Source: Candidatus Uhrbacteria bacterium (GTDB lineage Bacteria > Patescibacteriota > Patescibacteriia > 2-12-FULL-60-25). From it: a DNA stretch of 34,640 nt. The DNA lies in the NCBI GenBank assembly GCA_016203535.1, contig JACQMO010000027.1, forward strand, positions 1-34,640, written 5' to 3'. This document shows, one piece after another, positions 2,012 through 7,962 of the stretch; the first letter of the stretch is position 1; every line of letters begins with the position of its first letter. Under the pieces are notes generated by a model. It was not told where the DNA came from. It was given only the letters and a program-made list of their open reading frames with translations, and made no database searches. The position numbers and the translations under genes were made by a program.

Positions 2012-2039
2012 AGAAAAAACCCACGAGCGTATCGTGGGT
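2012..2039 (-). terminator. Intrinsic terminator of paralog A
   Basis: On the minus strand an 8-bp stem ACCCACGA/TCGTGGGT with a 5-nt loop is followed by a run of T. It overlaps the TGA that ends the -1 frame of paralog A, so the -1 frame stop is the true end of the transcription unit. That supports the -1 frame as coding. Confidence 0.85.
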
Positions 2040-2467
2040 CAGGTTGCGCGGCTCTTTGCGGCCAGGAGCGTCTGCGCGAGCGTCTGGTCCTTCCCGTGGA
2101 GCTCCATGAGGAACATGCGCTCGATGATCTTCCCGTTCTTCCGGCCCAGCCCGTCCTTGGTATACCGGGTGGGGTCGAGTTGAGTCAGGAAGGCGATCAT
2201 CGCGCTCCTGCGGCCCGCTTCGTCTGCAACCCACTCCGCGTGGAGGAGCAGACGCCCGAGCGCGCGGAGGGCGTCGAGCGGGATGTTCAGGTCGGCCGGG
2301 ATCTTCTTCGATTCCAACTGGGCGAGCAGGACCAGGCGTTCGGCCGCGTCCTCTTCGCTCTCTGTCTCCGCGGGTGGAGGTTCCGGCGGGTCGGGCGGCT
2401 CGGAGCCGTTCGATGGCGCGGGCGGAGCGCTCTGAACCGACGGGGTCAGCTCAGGCGCAACTGCGCT
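2039..2467 (-). CDS. -1 frame extension of paralog A: acidic/proline linker plus C-terminal domain
   Basis: This frame is entered from the 0-frame ORF by a -1 slip on C CCA AAA (2473-2467) and runs 142 codons to TGA at 2041-2039, giving a 429-aa fusion. The first ~45 residues are a P/E/S-rich linker. The last ~97 form a domain (EWVADEAGRRSAMIAFL, DPTRY, RMFLMEL) alignable with the end of paralog C (RWLVDEERLRRAIVSTL, KPDTY, DVFLAEL). The linker is coding-like well upstream of the only plausible internal starts (for example TTG at 2317), there is no SD there, and the stop abuts the terminator. I infer it is made mainly by frameshifting. Independent internal initiation is the alternative. Function is unknown. 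Confidence 0.8.
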   Translation of the reverse strand, partial: SAVAPELTPSVQSAPPAPSNGSEPPDPPEPPPAETESEEDAAERLVLLAQLESKKIPADLNIPLDALRALGRLLLHAEWVADEAGRRSAMIAFLTQLDPTRYTKDGLGRKNGKIIERMFLMELHGKDQTLAQTLLAAKSRAT

Positions 2468-2473
2468 TTTGGG
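2427..2473 (-). promoter_or_regulatory. Programmed -1 ribosomal frameshift signal of paralog A
   Basis: In the 0 frame the codons are GCC CCA AAA GCG, containing the slippery heptamer C CCA AAA (X XXY YYZ) at 2473-2467. After an 8-nt spacer comes a stem: GCGC (2458-2455) pairs with GCGC (2430-2427), CTGA (2454-2451) pairs with TCAG (2435-2432) across a bulged A (2431), and ACC (2446-2444) pairs with GGT (2438-2436) around a 5-nt loop. A purine-rich GAGGG sits 6 nt upstream of the heptamer. The spacing and layout match known bacterial -1 signals such as dnaX, and paralog C repeats them. Confidence 0.85.
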
Positions 2474-3327
2474 GCGATGCCCTCGCCGTTCGGCGCGTCG
2501 CTCGCCGTGGCTTCGGCAGGCGCCGCCGACTCCGCGTCGTCACCGCCCTCTTCCTCGGGGAGGTCCTCGTCGTCGGAGGAATCGGTCAGCTCGAGCACGG
2601 GCTCGGCGGGCGGCGGGGGTTCGATGAACCCGTGCGCCTGGGCGACCTTGGGGCCGATGACGTTCTCCCAGATGTGGTCCAGCGGGATGTGCTCGACGAA
2701 CACCGATGCCGGCGTCGTTTCGAGCAGATCGCGGTCCGCGTAGGACCCCTTCTGCCGCCCGGCGGTGACCGTCGCGCGCAGGAGCTTGGCGAGCTCCGTG
2801 TTGGGGAAGCGAGACGCGATGGTATCGAACCCCACCCCGTCCACGATGTCCTGGTGCGTCACGAGACCGTTGGCGAGCGCGCACTCCAGCATGAACTGGA
2901 GGTGCTGCTTGCTGCGGGCCGGGTTCTTCGACACCGCGTCCGGCTTCCAGAAGCCGGACTCCGTGTGGTAGTTCCAGAGGAGCAGGATCGGCAGGAACAG
3001 GACGCGATCGTCCGGATGGATGTGCGCGACGATCTTCGCGGCCGTATCCTCACGAACCTCGAGCGCGAGCAGGAGCAGCGTCGCGGCGTCCTCGGCGCGG
3101 GCCCGCAGCGCGACCTCCTCCATGAGGTTCGTCGTCGGGCAGAGGATGCGTGCGCGCAGCTTCGGTTCGTTCTTGAGCCCCTCCATGATGATGAGGGGCG
3201 AGAAGTTCCTCACGAAGTCGTAGTCGTCACGGATCCCGATGTCGAGCCCGTGGACGATGACCTCCGAGAGGAACCGCTGTCGACCTTCCGGCAGGTTGGA
3301 TTTGAACGTTTGTCCAGCGTCACTCAT
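2446..3327 (-). CDS. Paralog A, 0-frame product: helical protein of unknown function
   Basis: A 293-aa ORF starting at ATG 3327 behind the SD GGAGGG. Residues 1-240 form a mostly helical domain shared with the next two genes (landmarks: LIIMEGL, KLRARI, ESGFW, VEHIPLDHIWENVI). Residues 241-286 are an acidic, proline/alanine-rich linker. After the heptamer at codons 285-287 the 0 frame reads only six more codons (AQLRLS) and stops at TGA inside the downstream stem. I do not recognise the family. There is no signal peptide or membrane segment, so it is probably cytoplasmic. It has its own promoter (3393-3421). It is likely the short form of a short/long pair; the long form adds the domain encoded at 2467-2039. 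Confidence 0.88.
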   Translation of the reverse strand: MSDAGQTFKSNLPEGRQRFLSEVIVHGLDIGIRDDYDFVRNFSPLIIMEGLKNEPKLRARILCPTTNLMEEVALRARAEDAATLLLLALEVREDTAAKIVAHIHPDDRVLFLPILLLWNYHTESGFWKPDAVSKNPARSKQHLQFMLECALANGLVTHQDIVDGVGFDTIASRFPNTELAKLLRATVTAGRQKGSYADRDLLETTPASVFVEHIPLDHIWENVIGPKVAQAHGFIEPPPPAEPVLELTDSSDDEDLPEEEGGDDAESAAPAEATASDAPNGEGIAPKAQLRLS

Positions 3328-3631: not shown

Positions 3632-4357
3632 TCAACGCATGCCCTTCAAGCTCGGGGGCGGCCGAAGGGATTGCGGCGGGAGCTCGGTGATGAGCCCGTG
3701 CGCGAAGGCGATCCGCGGCGCGATGACCTTCCTCCAAAGCGCGTTGATCGGGTAGATCTGGATGAACGCGCGGAAGGTGACTTGGTTGAAAAAGTCCAAG
3801 GCGGTGTAGCACTCACCGCGGCGGCCGCGCGTGACCGTCTCGCGAACGACTCCGGCCATCTTTTTCCGGAAATGGTTCGCGATGACGTCGTACCCGATGT
3901 GTCCCAGGACTTCCTCGGCCGTGACCACGTCGTGGAATATAGCCCGCTCGAGCAAAACGGCCATGTAGTCGAGAACGCGTTGCTGGTATTCCCGGTCGCC
4001 TTTGAGCTCCCAGAAACCGCTCTCGGTGATGAAGGACCAGACGTCGCGCTTCTCGAAGAGATGCGCGCCTTGTGCAGGATCGATGAGTTGTACTACGGCG
4101 TCGGGGGTCGTGATCCCGACGTCGAGCGCGATCTGAAGGATGTCCGCGCAAGATTCCGGCGCGAGCAGGAACGCGATGTGCTCGTTCATTCCGGTGAGCG
4201 CGGTCACGATGCGCGACCGCAATTTCGGATGTTCGCAGAACCCGCGCATGATCATTTGCGGCGTGATCACCGAAAGGAAATGCTCGGGATCCAGGATCCG
4301 CTTTCGGAACCCCTCCGTCAGCAGGTCCTGGAGAAACCGTTCGATCGCTTCATTCAT
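3632..4357 (-). CDS. Paralog B: helical protein of unknown function, no frameshift extension
   Basis: 241 aa from ATG 4357, preceded by AAGGAGGGTAC, which decides this start over upstream in-frame codons. The whole protein aligns with the N-terminal domain of paralogs A and C. Shared blocks are MIMRGF, KLRSRI, ALTGMNEHIAFLL, TESGFW and AFIQIYPINALWRKVI; the last matches A at VFVEHIPLDHIWENVI. The family is unrecognised and the protein is soluble by appearance. It ends about 10 residues after the shared domain with a short proline-rich tail. It has no CCCAAAA heptamer, no linker and no C-terminal domain, and a terminator follows within 20 nt, so it is a natural counterpart of the short forms of A and C. 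Confidence 0.88.
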   Translation of the reverse strand: MNEAIERFLQDLLTEGFRKRILDPEHFLSVITPQMIMRGFCEHPKLRSRIVTALTGMNEHIAFLLAPESCADILQIALDVGITTPDAVVQLIDPAQGAHLFEKRDVWSFITESGFWELKGDREYQQRVLDYMAVLLERAIFHDVVTAEEVLGHIGYDVIANHFRKKMAGVVRETVTRGRRGECYTALDFFNQVTFRAFIQIYPINALWRKVIAPRIAFAHGLITELPPQSLRPPPSLKGMR

Positions 4358-4447: not shown

Positions 4448-4472
4448 AAAAAAATCCGCGATGGCTCGCGGA
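4448..4472 (-). terminator. Intrinsic terminator of paralog C
   Basis: On the minus strand a TCCGCGA/TCGCGGA stem with a 4-nt loop is followed by seven T. It lies 12 nt past the TAA of the -1 frame, about 680 nt after the 0-frame stop. The -1 frame is therefore part of the same transcription unit. Confidence 0.85.
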
Positions 4473-4484
4473 GAGGGGAGATCC

Positions 4485-5159
4485 TTATCGGGATGACACC
4501 GGACGCCGCGGGGGCGCCGGTCGTGACGGCGGGGATTCCCGGCGAAGACGGTCCGCCACGGCCATGAGCGCGGGCGTAATCGCCAGTTCGGCGAGGAACA
4601 CGTCGCAGAGCTCCGGAAGTTCGGTGGTTTTCCAGGGGCCGTCCGACCCGTAGGTGTCGGGCTTGATCCGTTGGAGCGTGGAGACGATGGCTCTTCGGAG
4701 GCGTTCCTCGTCCACGAGCCACCGGCCTTCGAGCATGAGGGTCTTCAGATCGCCGGCTTCCTCCTCGGTCGTTTCGTCGGAGAACTGGAGCCCCAACTCG
4801 TCCTCGATCTGGATGAGGTAGTTGAACGCAATGAGGGACGATCCGGATGACCTCGGGGCGTCCGGCGGATCGGTGATGGGCTTGCCGCGGGCCGCGTCGA
4901 ACGCGCTGTCCGGAATGCGCGGGACGTCCTCGCGCGGGTCGCCGTCCGGCGCGTCATAGCCCATGTCTTCGAGCTCCAGCTCTTCGAGGCCGAGACCGTC
5001 GTCGTCGACTTCTTCGGTTTCCAGTTCCGGCGTCGCCTGTGACGGAGGGGGATCGTCCGCCGGCGGACGGGTCGTCTCGCGTTCAAAGACGTCTTCAGGC
5101 GGATGCTTCGGCGCTCTGCCCGGCTCCGTGTGGAGCTCGGCGGCAGGCGCCTCTAGGCT
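4485..5159 (-). CDS. -1 frame extension of paralog C: long acidic linker plus C-terminal domain
   Basis: Entered by a -1 slip on C CCA AAA (5165-5159), this frame runs 224 codons to TAA at 4487-4485, for a 484-aa fusion with the 260 codons upstream. The first ~125 residues are a linker rich in P, E and D (for example LGLEELELED). The following ~95 contain the domain shared with paralog A (RWLVDEERLRRAIVSTL, KPDTY, DVFLAEL). A basic/proline tail closes the protein. The frame happens to be open upstream of the slip site too, but there it reads arginine-rich antisense-like noise while the 0 frame carries the conserved domain. No SD-supported internal start is evident. Function is unknown. Confidence 0.8.
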   Translation of the reverse strand, partial: SLEAPAAELHTEPGRAPKHPPEDVFERETTRPPADDPPPSQATPELETEEVDDDGLGLEELELEDMGYDAPDGDPREDVPRIPDSAFDAARGKPITDPPDAPRSSGSSLIAFNYLIQIEDELGLQFSDETTEEEAGDLKTLMLEGRWLVDEERLRRAIVSTLQRIKPDTYGSDGPWKTTELPELCDVFLAELAITPALMAVADRLRRESPPSRPAPPRRPVSSR

Positions 5160-5165
5160 TTTGGG
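5110..5165 (-). promoter_or_regulatory. Programmed -1 ribosomal frameshift signal of paralog C
   Basis: 0-frame codons TCC CCA AAA GCC TAG contain the heptamer C CCA AAA (5165-5159), and the 0-frame stop is the second codon after it. After a 7-nt spacer: GGCGC (5151-5147) pairs with GCGCC (5114-5110), CTGCC (5146-5142) pairs with GGCAG (5120-5116) with one bulged A (5115), and GCTCC (5136-5132) pairs with GGAGC (5127-5123) closing an ACAC loop. That makes 15 pairs, mostly G-C. The lower stem has the same order and bulge as in paralog A, with a compensatory change (CTGA/TCAG in A, CTGC/GCAG here). Confidence 0.87.
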
Positions 5166-5938
5166 GAGGATTTCTCGAACCCCATCGCCTGTTCGGCCGC
5201 GTCCACGATGCCGGAGAGCTCCGCGATCGGGATGTGGCGAAGGATGAGGGCGGGCGTCGCGATCGAGAGGATCCGCTTCGAACCGAACGGTTCGTTCGGC
5301 TTCACCTTTTCGAGCGCAAGCATCGCTTCGTCGATCGCCATGCGCGTTTCGACGGGGATGCGCGTCTGCCAGCTCCGGCGGTCGATGGACCACAGGAAGT
5401 CGAGCGGGGTCAGGATCGGTTTTACGTTCCCGTCCCCGCGTTCCTTCATGAGCGCATCGATGAGACGCGCGATGATTTCCTGATGCGGCTCGGCATTGTC
5501 GTTCCACGGCATGCGCTCGCGGAAGAGCCACCAGAATTTCCGCGCATCCATGTAGACGACCAGGGTCGTGATGTGGAACGCGGATTCCCAACGCTCCAGA
5601 GGGGTTGCCCCGCACTCGACCGCCAGATCGATCAGGTTCGTCTGGTCTTGCGGCGTCATGCGCCGCGCCGCCATCGGAAGGTAGCCGGTCAGCTCGGTCG
5701 TGATTTTCTGACGCAGATCCGGGCGTTCACCGAACGCGGTCATGCGCTCTGCGGTCGGGAACGCGTCGCGGAGCATCGCGGGCGACCACCAGTCGAGCGA
5801 GAGCAGCCGGAGCGTCTCGAGAAGCTCGGCGACGATCTGGAGCGCCGGTCGCGCGCTCAAATACGCGGCGCCTTCCTTGTGCAGCGCGTCATCGGTTTTC
5901 TTCGCGGCATCGGTATGAACAAGTCCGGTTGCGGCCAT
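5153..5938 (-). CDS. Paralog C, 0-frame product: helical protein of unknown function
   Basis: 261 aa from ATG 5938, chosen because GAAGGAGG sits 5 nt upstream; the in-frame GTG at 5953 overlaps that SD. It is the most diverged member of the A/B/C family but keeps the blocks DLRQKI, ELTGYLPMAARRM, a KFWWLF segment where A and B have ESGFW, and LILRHIPIAELSGIV. The ORF ends in SSPKA directly at the slippery heptamer with TAG, so unshifted ribosomes release a protein lacking the linker and C-terminal domain. It has no signal peptide and a good promoter of its own immediately after the aldolase gene. Function is unknown. Confidence 0.85.
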   Translation of the reverse strand: MAATGLVHTDAAKKTDDALHKEGAAYLSARPALQIVAELLETLRLLSLDWWSPAMLRDAFPTAERMTAFGERPDLRQKITTELTGYLPMAARRMTPQDQTNLIDLAVECGATPLERWESAFHITTLVVYMDARKFWWLFRERMPWNDNAEPHQEIIARLIDALMKERGDGNVKPILTPLDFLWSIDRRSWQTRIPVETRMAIDEAMLALEKVKPNEPFGSKRILSIATPALILRHIPIAELSGIVDAAEQAMGFEKSSPKA

Positions 5939-5986
5939 CGTGGCCTCCTTCACTGGTCAAGCTCCTTGTTGGGAATGTGCGGGTTG

Positions 5987-6027: not shown

Positions 6028-6948
6028 TCACCGCACACGACCGTCGCTGCCGAAGAGTTTCATTTTTTTCATCGCGACCTCGCGCATGAGGAGGGTCGCC
6101 GGTTCGAGGAGCTTGCGCGGATCGATGACCTTCGGGAGATCATCCACCGCCTCGCGGACGCCGGCCGTAAACGCCAATCTCAAATCCGTATCGATGTTGA
6201 TTTTCGCGACACCGTTCCGGATGGCGGCGCGGATGTCCGCATCGAGCACGCCGCGGGCTTCGCCGAGTTTGGCGCCATGAGACTCGGCGATTTTTTTCAC
6301 GTCTTCCCGGACGCCGGACGCGCCGTGGAGCACGAGCGGAAGCTTCACGAGACCCGCGATCCGTTTCAGCCGGGCGATGTCGAGATGGGTCTTTCCTTTG
6401 AACTTGAACGCGCCGTGCGACGTGCCGATGGCGATCGCGAGCGAATCGCAACCCGTTTTCTCCGCGAACCGGGCGGCTTCGTCCGGGTTGGTGAGCTTGG
6501 CGTCCTTCTCCTCGACGCTCACGAAATCCTCGATGCCGGCGAGCGCGCCGATCTCCGCTTCAACGGAAACGCCTTTCGCATGGGCGAGCCGGACGACGGT
6601 CTTCGTGATCGCGACGTTTTTCCGATACGGGAGCGCCGATCCGTCCATCATGACCGAGCTGTACCCGTGCGCGAGCGCCATCTTCACGTACCGGAGTTCC
6701 TTGCCGTGGTCCAGATGCATGACGACCGGGATCTTTCCGGCCGCCGCGACGCGGATCATGGCCGAAAGATACTCGATGCCGGCATAGTCGATTGCGCCCT
6801 CCGAGGTTTGCAGGATCACGGGCGACCGCATCTTCTCGGCCGCGGACATGACCGCCTTGAGGACTTCCAGATTGTTCACGTTGAACGCGGGGACGGCGTA
6901 GTTTTTTGCGCGCGCTGGGATGAGCAGTTTTTTTGCGGGGACGAGCAT
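6028..6948 (-). CDS. fba: Class II fructose-1,6-bisphosphate aldolase
   Basis: 306 aa, the normal size for class II aldolases, which cleave fructose-1,6-bisphosphate to DHAP and glyceraldehyde-3-phosphate using zinc. Visible hallmarks are YAVPAFNVNN (17-26), the catalytic Asp and zinc His in HLDHG (D80, H81), VEAEIG (130-135), zinc His H178 in GTSHGA, H208 in LHGASG, and a C-terminal phosphate-binding NIDTDLR. It follows the PfkB kinase after 9 nt and is the last gene of the sugar operon. No terminator is visible after it; the paralog C promoter follows at once. A tagatose-bisphosphate aldolase role is possible within this family but less likely given the context. Confidence 0.93.
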   Translation of the reverse strand: MLVPAKKLLIPARAKNYAVPAFNVNNLEVLKAVMSAAEKMRSPVILQTSEGAIDYAGIEYLSAMIRVAAAGKIPVVMHLDHGKELRYVKMALAHGYSSVMMDGSALPYRKNVAITKTVVRLAHAKGVSVEAEIGALAGIEDFVSVEEKDAKLTNPDEAARFAEKTGCDSLAIAIGTSHGAFKFKGKTHLDIARLKRIAGLVKLPLVLHGASGVREDVKKIAESHGAKLGEARGVLDADIRAAIRNGVAKINIDTDLRLAFTAGVREAVDDLPKVIDPRKLLEPATLLMREVAMKKMKLFGSDGRVR

Positions 6949-6957
6949 ACGGCAGGG

Positions 6958-7962
6958 TTATGAGGACATCGGATGACGCGGATGCTGGAGCATCTGGGCC
7001 TTGATCCGGGAGAATTTTTTCAGGACCTTGCGCATTTCGTTCACCGTCAGCAGACCTTTTTGCGGGCCGATACGTTGGATGACGCTCCAGCCGTTCGCCG
7101 TGCCCCATCGGAGCGCTTCATGCACATTTTTTCCCAGAAGGATGGCAGCCGTCATGCCGATCGCGAAACTGTCGCCGGCGCCCGTTTTTTCCACCGGTTG
7201 GGCCGGGAAAACGGGGATGCGGCAGTGGCTTGTTCCGTTGTAGCACTCCGCGCCGTTTGCGCCGTCCGTGACAACCACCGTTTTCGCGCCGATGGAGAGG
7301 AACCGTTCCATCATGGCGAGCGTGGTCCGGTCGCCGTCCGGGAGCAGGTGGTGCGCCTCGTCCTTGTTCAGGATGAAGAGATCGCTCCGCATGATGAGCC
7401 CCCGGATGTGCTTCAGCCCGCCCAGGACATGTGTCGTCCCCGGCTGGAACACGAAAAACGTTTTCGGATGAGCCGTCAGGTGTTTCAGCACCGCGCGGTC
7501 GAACGTCGCGTGATGGTTTCCCATGGCGGTGTAGTAGATGCACCGCGCGGTCGCGAGACGCGGAAGGTTGTATGAACGCGGTTGGAAATAGACGAACTGC
7601 GTTCGCTCGGTTTTGTAGTTCAAAATCGTGGCCTCGCTTGTCGGATGGAGTTTGTCGGTGAGGAGATAGCGGCAATCCACGCGGTCCTTCTGGAGCGCTT
7701 CGCGGGAGTGGCGTCCGGCATGGTCGTCGCCGACCCAGCTCACGAGGGCGGATTTCAATCCCAGGCGCGAGGCGCCGACCGCGGCGTTCGATGCGTTGCC
7801 GGCCGCCGGAACCTTGACGACGTGTTTCACCGGAATTTTTTCCGCGTACTCGAAGCAGAGGAGGTTCCGTTCGGTATCCAGGTGCGAGCTCCCGTTGGCC
7901 TCATCCAGCTGATAGAACACGTCGCGAAGCGATTCGCCGATCGAAATGATGTCGTAGGTCAT
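6958..7962 (-). CDS. PfkB family carbohydrate kinase in the transketolase/aldolase operon
   Basis: 334 aa. It starts MTYDIISIGESLRDVF and has the sugar-binding block PAAGNASNAAVGASRLG and the C-terminal signature KTGAGDSFAIG (catalytic Asp in GAGD, 261-264). It overlaps the coiled-coil gene upstream by 4 nt (ATGA) and lies 9 nt before the aldolase gene. Because classical ATP phosphofructokinase is often missing in Patescibacteria (general knowledge), a kinase beside aldolase could supply fructose-1,6-bisphosphate. That is only inference; ribokinase or adenosine kinase activity would fit the fold equally well. Confidence 0.88.
   Translation of the reverse strand: MTYDIISIGESLRDVFYQLDEANGSSHLDTERNLLCFEYAEKIPVKHVVKVPAAGNASNAAVGASRLGLKSALVSWVGDDHAGRHSREALQKDRVDCRYLLTDKLHPTSEATILNYKTERTQFVYFQPRSYNLPRLATARCIYYTAMGNHHATFDRAVLKHLTAHPKTFFVFQPGTTHVLGGLKHIRGLIMRSDLFILNKDEAHHLLPDGDRTTLAMMERFLSIGAKTVVVTDGANGAECYNGTSHCRIPVFPAQPVEKTGAGDSFAIGMTAAILLGKNVHEALRWGTANGWSVIQRIGPQKGLLTVNEMRKVLKKFSRIKAQMLQHPRHPMSS

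Follow-up and report, generated by a model that had tools for sequence, protein, structure and literature searches.

Genes A and C of the window (the whole 34,640-nucleotide stretch of Candidatus Uhrbacteria DNA analysed here) are each likely to give two proteins per mRNA by programmed −1 ribosomal frameshifting, a reading to which we assign a probability of about 0.94, judged from the sequence and in the absence of expression, proteomic or reporter data. An earlier note had proposed that gene A yields a short and a long form from one mRNA, and this interpretation is supported by a conserved heptamer, codon phase, stop and stem and by the coding character of the extension; paralog C, for which that note reported no frameshift, has the same architecture, with its C-terminal domain also in the −1 frame. 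The features described below all lie on the minus strand, where the gene order is that of a PfkB kinase (6958..7962, presumably a PfkB-type sugar kinase), a gene that we take to be FBA, encoding fructose-bisphosphate aldolase (6028..6948; both were named by recognition), and then the three paralogs C, B and A. Paralog B (3632..4354) consists of the N-domain only and has neither heptamer nor extension, and the N-domains of A and C are only about 16–18 % identical. The kinase gene belongs to a conserved PfkB–FBA neighbourhood: apart from the window, FBA adjoins a gene of this family in about eleven genomes and is often preceded by PfkB, and in matched loci the homologues of the FBA neighbour are 69–83 % identical and the synteny is conserved. 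The family locus is thus fixed and chromosomal rather than part of a mobile element.

The 0 frame of gene A (3327..2446) encodes a short form of 293 amino acids, comprising an all-helical N-terminal domain and an acidic linker, and reads GCC CCA AAA GCG CAG TTG around the slip site. The heptamer C CCA AAA lies in phase at 2473..2467, and is followed by a spacer of 8 nt (2466..2459) and a predicted stimulatory stem–loop with bulges (GCGCCTGAGCTGACC ccg TCGGTTCAG a GCGC; 2458..2427), for which the predicted energy is −21 kcal/mol and the z-score −3.8 when a 45-nt piece is compared with dinucleotide shuffles; the 0-frame stop, TGA, is at 2446..2448. The −1 frame starts with CCC AAA at 2473 and runs to a stop at 2041..2039, and this extension (2039..2473, 144 codons including the slipped PK) corresponds to a linker and a C-terminal helical domain, such that the long product would be 287+142=429 amino acids. 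It is homologous to the equivalent extension of gene G008 (E-value 6.5e-8), and a hairpin resembling an intrinsic terminator (2040..2018) directly follows. The phase of the heptamer within the 293-codon ORF, the 8-nt spacer and bulged stem, the 142 further codons leading to a product of 429 residues and the ending of the long form at a terminator had all been claimed previously, and each is borne out here. A purine-rich, Shine–Dalgarno-like stretch (GCGAGGG, 2480..2487) upstream of the slip site is suggestive only.

In gene C the 0 frame (5153..5953) starts either with GTG at 5953 or, more likely, with ATG at 5938 after AAGGAGG, and ends TCC CCA AAA GCC TAG. The heptamer C CCA AAA is at 5165..5159, the TAG stop (5153..5155) comes two codons past its AAA, and the predicted stimulatory stem–loop (5110..5151; −29 kcal/mol, z −4.9) begins 7 nt past the heptamer. 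The −1 extension of 226 codons (4485..5165), which matches the C-terminal part of the single-frame homologue G018 (E-value 2.7e-12), is followed by another hairpin of the intrinsic-terminator type (4455..4472). The sequence CCCAAAA as such is no rarer in the window than expected by chance (three observed, four expected), and two of the three occurrences are at the equivalent position in the tandem paralogs A and C. The 22-nt pattern CCCAAAAGCNYAGNKGCGCCTG, which was itself derived from the A and C sites and is common to both, never arises in shuffles.

Homologues are present in 26 of 41 genomes of the same GTDB family, and the frameshift architecture is found in 14 genes of 13 genomes, all within that one family (A and C of the window, G001, G024, G008, G031, G030, G026, G013, G025, G057, G014, G010 and G035). 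The comparison of homologues that the earlier note had proposed as a check is thus favourable, with heptamer, frame relation and stem kept throughout these 14 genes. The in-phase heptamer is C CCA AAA in 13 of them and A AAA AAA in the remaining one (G031), a change that preserves slipperiness; the 0-frame stop may be TAG, TGA or TAA, and a single codon separates it from the heptamer in 12 of the 14. There are 16 slip sites in total, including two (G011 and G033) in which the roles of the frames are swapped. The same sites can be seen in the public records JAHJFW010000069.1 (G001), MGEH01000032.1 (G024) and QEVR01000002.1 (G011), the latter two of which are labelled Candidatus Uhrbacteria. Contig G010:C45 (L040) ends 22 codons into the −1 extension, and the stem of G010b is likewise interrupted by a contig end. 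Across 380 genomes of the class the motif occurs in this gene family only, apart from one match outside it (G085, L096), which is not in phase with a long ORF and was set aside as a chance occurrence.

It could be supposed that the frame change is merely a sequencing or assembly indel, or a recent frameshift mutation in a pseudogene; the genome that contains the window is a draft in 30 contigs, 87.8 % complete, and single-frame homologues do exist. However, two paralogs on a single contig and genes of 12 further genomes show the same frame change at the same heptamer, their stop codons differing and their stem covarying, and CCCCAAAA is not a long homopolymer, so that this explanation can be discounted almost entirely. 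An indel error at 2467-2474, which the earlier note had named as something that would refute it, is excluded by the conservation in 14 genes of 13 genomes.

Several lines of evidence indicate that the −1 extension is coding. Read in the −1 frame, the extensions agree with coding sequence in their GC content by codon position, and when the extensions are compared by frame, 16 homologous pairs are found in the −1 frame and only one in each of the other two. A profile built from the −1 extensions alone detects G018 (7.5e-16), G034 (1.6e-10) and G011 (9.5e-4), with no further match among 863 translated segments. Since the C-termini of single-frame homologues are homologous to the −1 extensions, we conclude that the extension is a real protein sequence. 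In at least four homologues (G018, G021, G034 and G004) the heptamer is absent and a single frame encodes the long form; such uninterrupted homologues had been put forward as evidence that would count against frameshifting, but those that exist (G018, G034 and others) have C-termini homologous to the extensions. Several other single-frame paralogs lack the C-domain, and together with the one-frame long homologues these indicate that two forms are not universally required. Simple readthrough of the stop was considered and rejected, as the homology lies in the −1 frame and not in frame 0. We note that many of the long forms and single-frame homologues end in PPPLP or a similar proline-rich sequence with basic residues (for example L025, L027, L035, L084 and L099), an ending that the short frame-0 forms do not have.

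In G008, G031, G057 and G013 the 0 and −1 frames share no more than a few codons around the heptamer, and in the first three of these the shared stretch is about seven codons long and includes the heptamer. The start of the −1 ORF near the 0-frame stop recalls coupled gene pairs, and the extension might accordingly be viewed as an independent gene downstream, the translation of which depends on reinitiation or translational coupling at that stop. We regard this as extremely unlikely, since the first ATG, GTG or TTG of the −1 frame is at a variable distance of 4 to 72 codons downstream with no conserved start at the junction, several genes have no start codon at all within the frame overlap, and some homologues are true single-frame fusions; moreover, reinitiation gives no reason for the heptamer and its codon phase to be conserved.

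A tree of the N-domains resolves C-type and A-type clades, each with 100/98 support, and frameshift genes as well as some single-frame genes fall within each. The presence of frameshift genes in both clades implies that the signal is older than their split, or that it has moved between paralogs.

Evidence for a structure downstream of the slip site comes from the sites taken together. When the longest helix with its start at offset 14 or 15, counted from the heptamer, is taken at each of 15 testable sites, the summed score is 311, compared with a mean of 206 (sd 11.5) after dinucleotide shuffling of the downstream part (z 9.1; 0 of 1000 shuffles as high). When the 3′ parts are swapped among sites the mean is 241 and the maximum 283, and none of 400 permutations reaches the real score; each 5′ arm thus fits its own 3′ arm. 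Mean helix strength is greatest at offsets 14–15, the spacer from heptamer to stem is 7–8 nt, and the pair at offset 18 covaries, being C-G, T-A, A-T or G-C in different genomes. Loop lengths range from a few to over 40 nt, and z-scores for the folding of single sites go down to −5. A stimulatory structure downstream is under selection, as far as computation alone can establish this. Rfam gave no match. Upstream, position −9 is a purine in all 16 sites and position −8 in 15 of them, within a tract from −11 to −7 that is consistent with a Shine–Dalgarno stimulator but only suggestive of one: the combined z-score of the Shine–Dalgarno-like tract is −3.8, and single sites are weak. The bin yielded no 16S 3′ end from which the anti-Shine–Dalgarno sequence could have been taken.

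Slippage of the RNA polymerase rather than the ribosome is a further means by which the frame could change, and the run of seven A residues in G031 (L023), which has a TAA stop, could allow some transcriptional slippage. Nonetheless, 15 of the 16 sites are CCCAAAA, where homopolymers do not exceed four or five bases and fall short of the long A or T run (about eight or more) that transcriptional slippage calls for, and the stem is conserved at a distance specific to ribosomes; we therefore consider transcriptional slippage very improbable. In the programmed ribosomal frameshifting that we favour, the stem 7–8 nt past the slip site would stall the ribosome with tRNA-Pro on CCA and tRNA-Lys on AAA, in the P and A sites respectively. 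In some ribosomes the two tRNAs would then pair anew with CCC and AAA, in the −1 frame, and translation would proceed through the linker into the C-terminal helical domain, while ribosomes that did not slip would terminate within a few codons. The short form would consist of the N-domain, ending in PKA in most cases, and the long form of N-domain, linker and C-domain with, in most, a proline-rich tail. That slippage occurs, and that it does so by tandem tRNA slippage, is an inference.

The two homologues with swapped frames, G011 and G033, bear on how often slippage might occur. Here the long form is encoded by frame 0 and a −1 shift would yield the short form, as the in-phase C CCA AAA is retained and the −1 frame then ends after four codons (PKSL*) or three (PKR*); the stems are perfect, of 11 and 9 bp, and at the same distance as elsewhere. 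In comparison with C, G011 has one extra base between heptamer and stem (CCTGTGAGGCG versus CCTAGAGGCG). These genes could be relics that no longer frameshift and make the long form only, as each could function in its single frame without slippage and the heptamer has been lost in four other long homologues. We think this doubtful, although it cannot be dismissed, given that the in-phase heptamer, the perfect stem and the immediate −1 stop have all been kept in both, despite only about 25–33 % protein identity to gene A. Reversal of roles by a single base change has been described for sites of ~50 % efficiency in dnaX (PMC5009743), and by that logic the swap in two homologues hints, by inference, at efficient slippage. 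Because the roles have been exchanged in this way, there may be a need for both forms and the efficiency may be considerable, perhaps close to one half, although this is inferred more weakly than slippage itself and has not been measured. On balance we incline, with little conviction, to an old, family-wide two-isoform system of Patescibacteria, with the cassette present in both of the diverged paralog clades, where selection acts on the proportion of short to long form; on this view the swap, with the cassette kept in two lineages, implies that about half of the ribosomes slip and that both products are needed.

What these proteins do remains obscure. Sequence searches of Pfam, NCBIfam, PHROGs and the PDB found no family for A, B or the extensions, and Pfam at E≤1 gave no match except one sub-threshold match in C that is unrelated to AAA+; identity with DnaX, which would require an AAA+ clamp loader, was rejected on the same Pfam result. 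A transposase or IS element was likewise rejected, there being no family match and a fixed PfkB–FBA neighbourhood, and a scan of viral contigs found no relative. Part of paralog C (5606-5866) has a weak match to positions 504-591 of NCBIfam DpdD (E-value 9.6e-6), its 24.7 bits being far below the cut-off of 300. AlphaFold2 gives a confident all-helical model for the N-domain (mean pLDDT 82) and a poor one for the C-domain (pLDDT 55); as Foldseek returned nothing at E≤0.001 for the N-domain model, and the best Z from a second aligner was 3.4, no fold is assigned. A scaffold or adaptor made in two lengths, as for CsoS2, is plausible from the architecture but is a guess.

The kind of mechanism is known from dnaX, csoS2 and copA, whereas the gene family is new. 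IS1 and IS3 transposases also make a longer fusion by means of a shift at a heptamer with a stem, but these elements are mobile and the locus described here has PfkB–FBA synteny and no transposase match. The slip site of Escherichia coli copA is C CCA AAG. That gene, too, is chromosomal and gives two products by −1 frameshifting (PMC5009743; PMC9548414), although its shift yields a 70-aa chaperone and the protein is unrelated. In dnaX (tau/gamma) a slippery heptamer and a downstream stem likewise provide short and long forms sharing an N-terminus from a chromosomal gene, and both frame arrangements occur among bacteria (PMC4066793; PMC5009743); the protein is unrelated, the heptamer is A AAA AAG rather than C CCA AAA, and in the present family it is usually the long form that comes from the shift. 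The csoS2 gene of alpha-carboxysomes is similarly chromosomal and non-mobile and encodes one protein in two lengths, with about 50 % −1 frameshifting and a complex 3′ stem (PMC5009743), but there the shift makes the short form, and protein and setting differ. In E. coli, 18 motifs were selected because their activity exceeded 0.10 % in the absence of stimulators, and C_CC.A_AA.A is one of these; with a stimulator, the sister motif C_CC.A_AA.G performed best, at 54 % (PMC4066793).

Few families of non-mobile bacterial genes with conserved −1 frameshifting are known, and the present genes would add one, with 14 natural variants of the signal. In the literature searched, from which preprints and most subscription papers were absent, no paper connects ribosomal frameshifting with Patescibacteria, CPR or Uhrbacteria; within these limits the case is seemingly the first noted in Patescibacteria, and the earlier statement that no such chromosomal gene had been described there is not contradicted. 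Gene callers would give the short form and either overlook the C-domain or annotate it as a gene of its own. With a natural series of cassettes available, two of them swapped, rules for slip site, spacer, stem and efficiency can be put directly to the test, and there is a way into a protein family whose function is unknown and whose genes lie beside that for fructose-bisphosphate aldolase.

Myxococcota MAGs, too, contain members of the N-domain family: those at L044/L045 are 39–43 % identical to A, and of 115 genomes sampled within the order to which a Polyangiaceae MAG (G385) belongs, 25 have a member. Transfer may link Patescibacteria and Myxococcota. Reading of 13 Polyangiales loci (L097–L109) revealed no frameshift cassette of this kind; one of them (L108) has a single C CCA AAG, in a single-frame gene.
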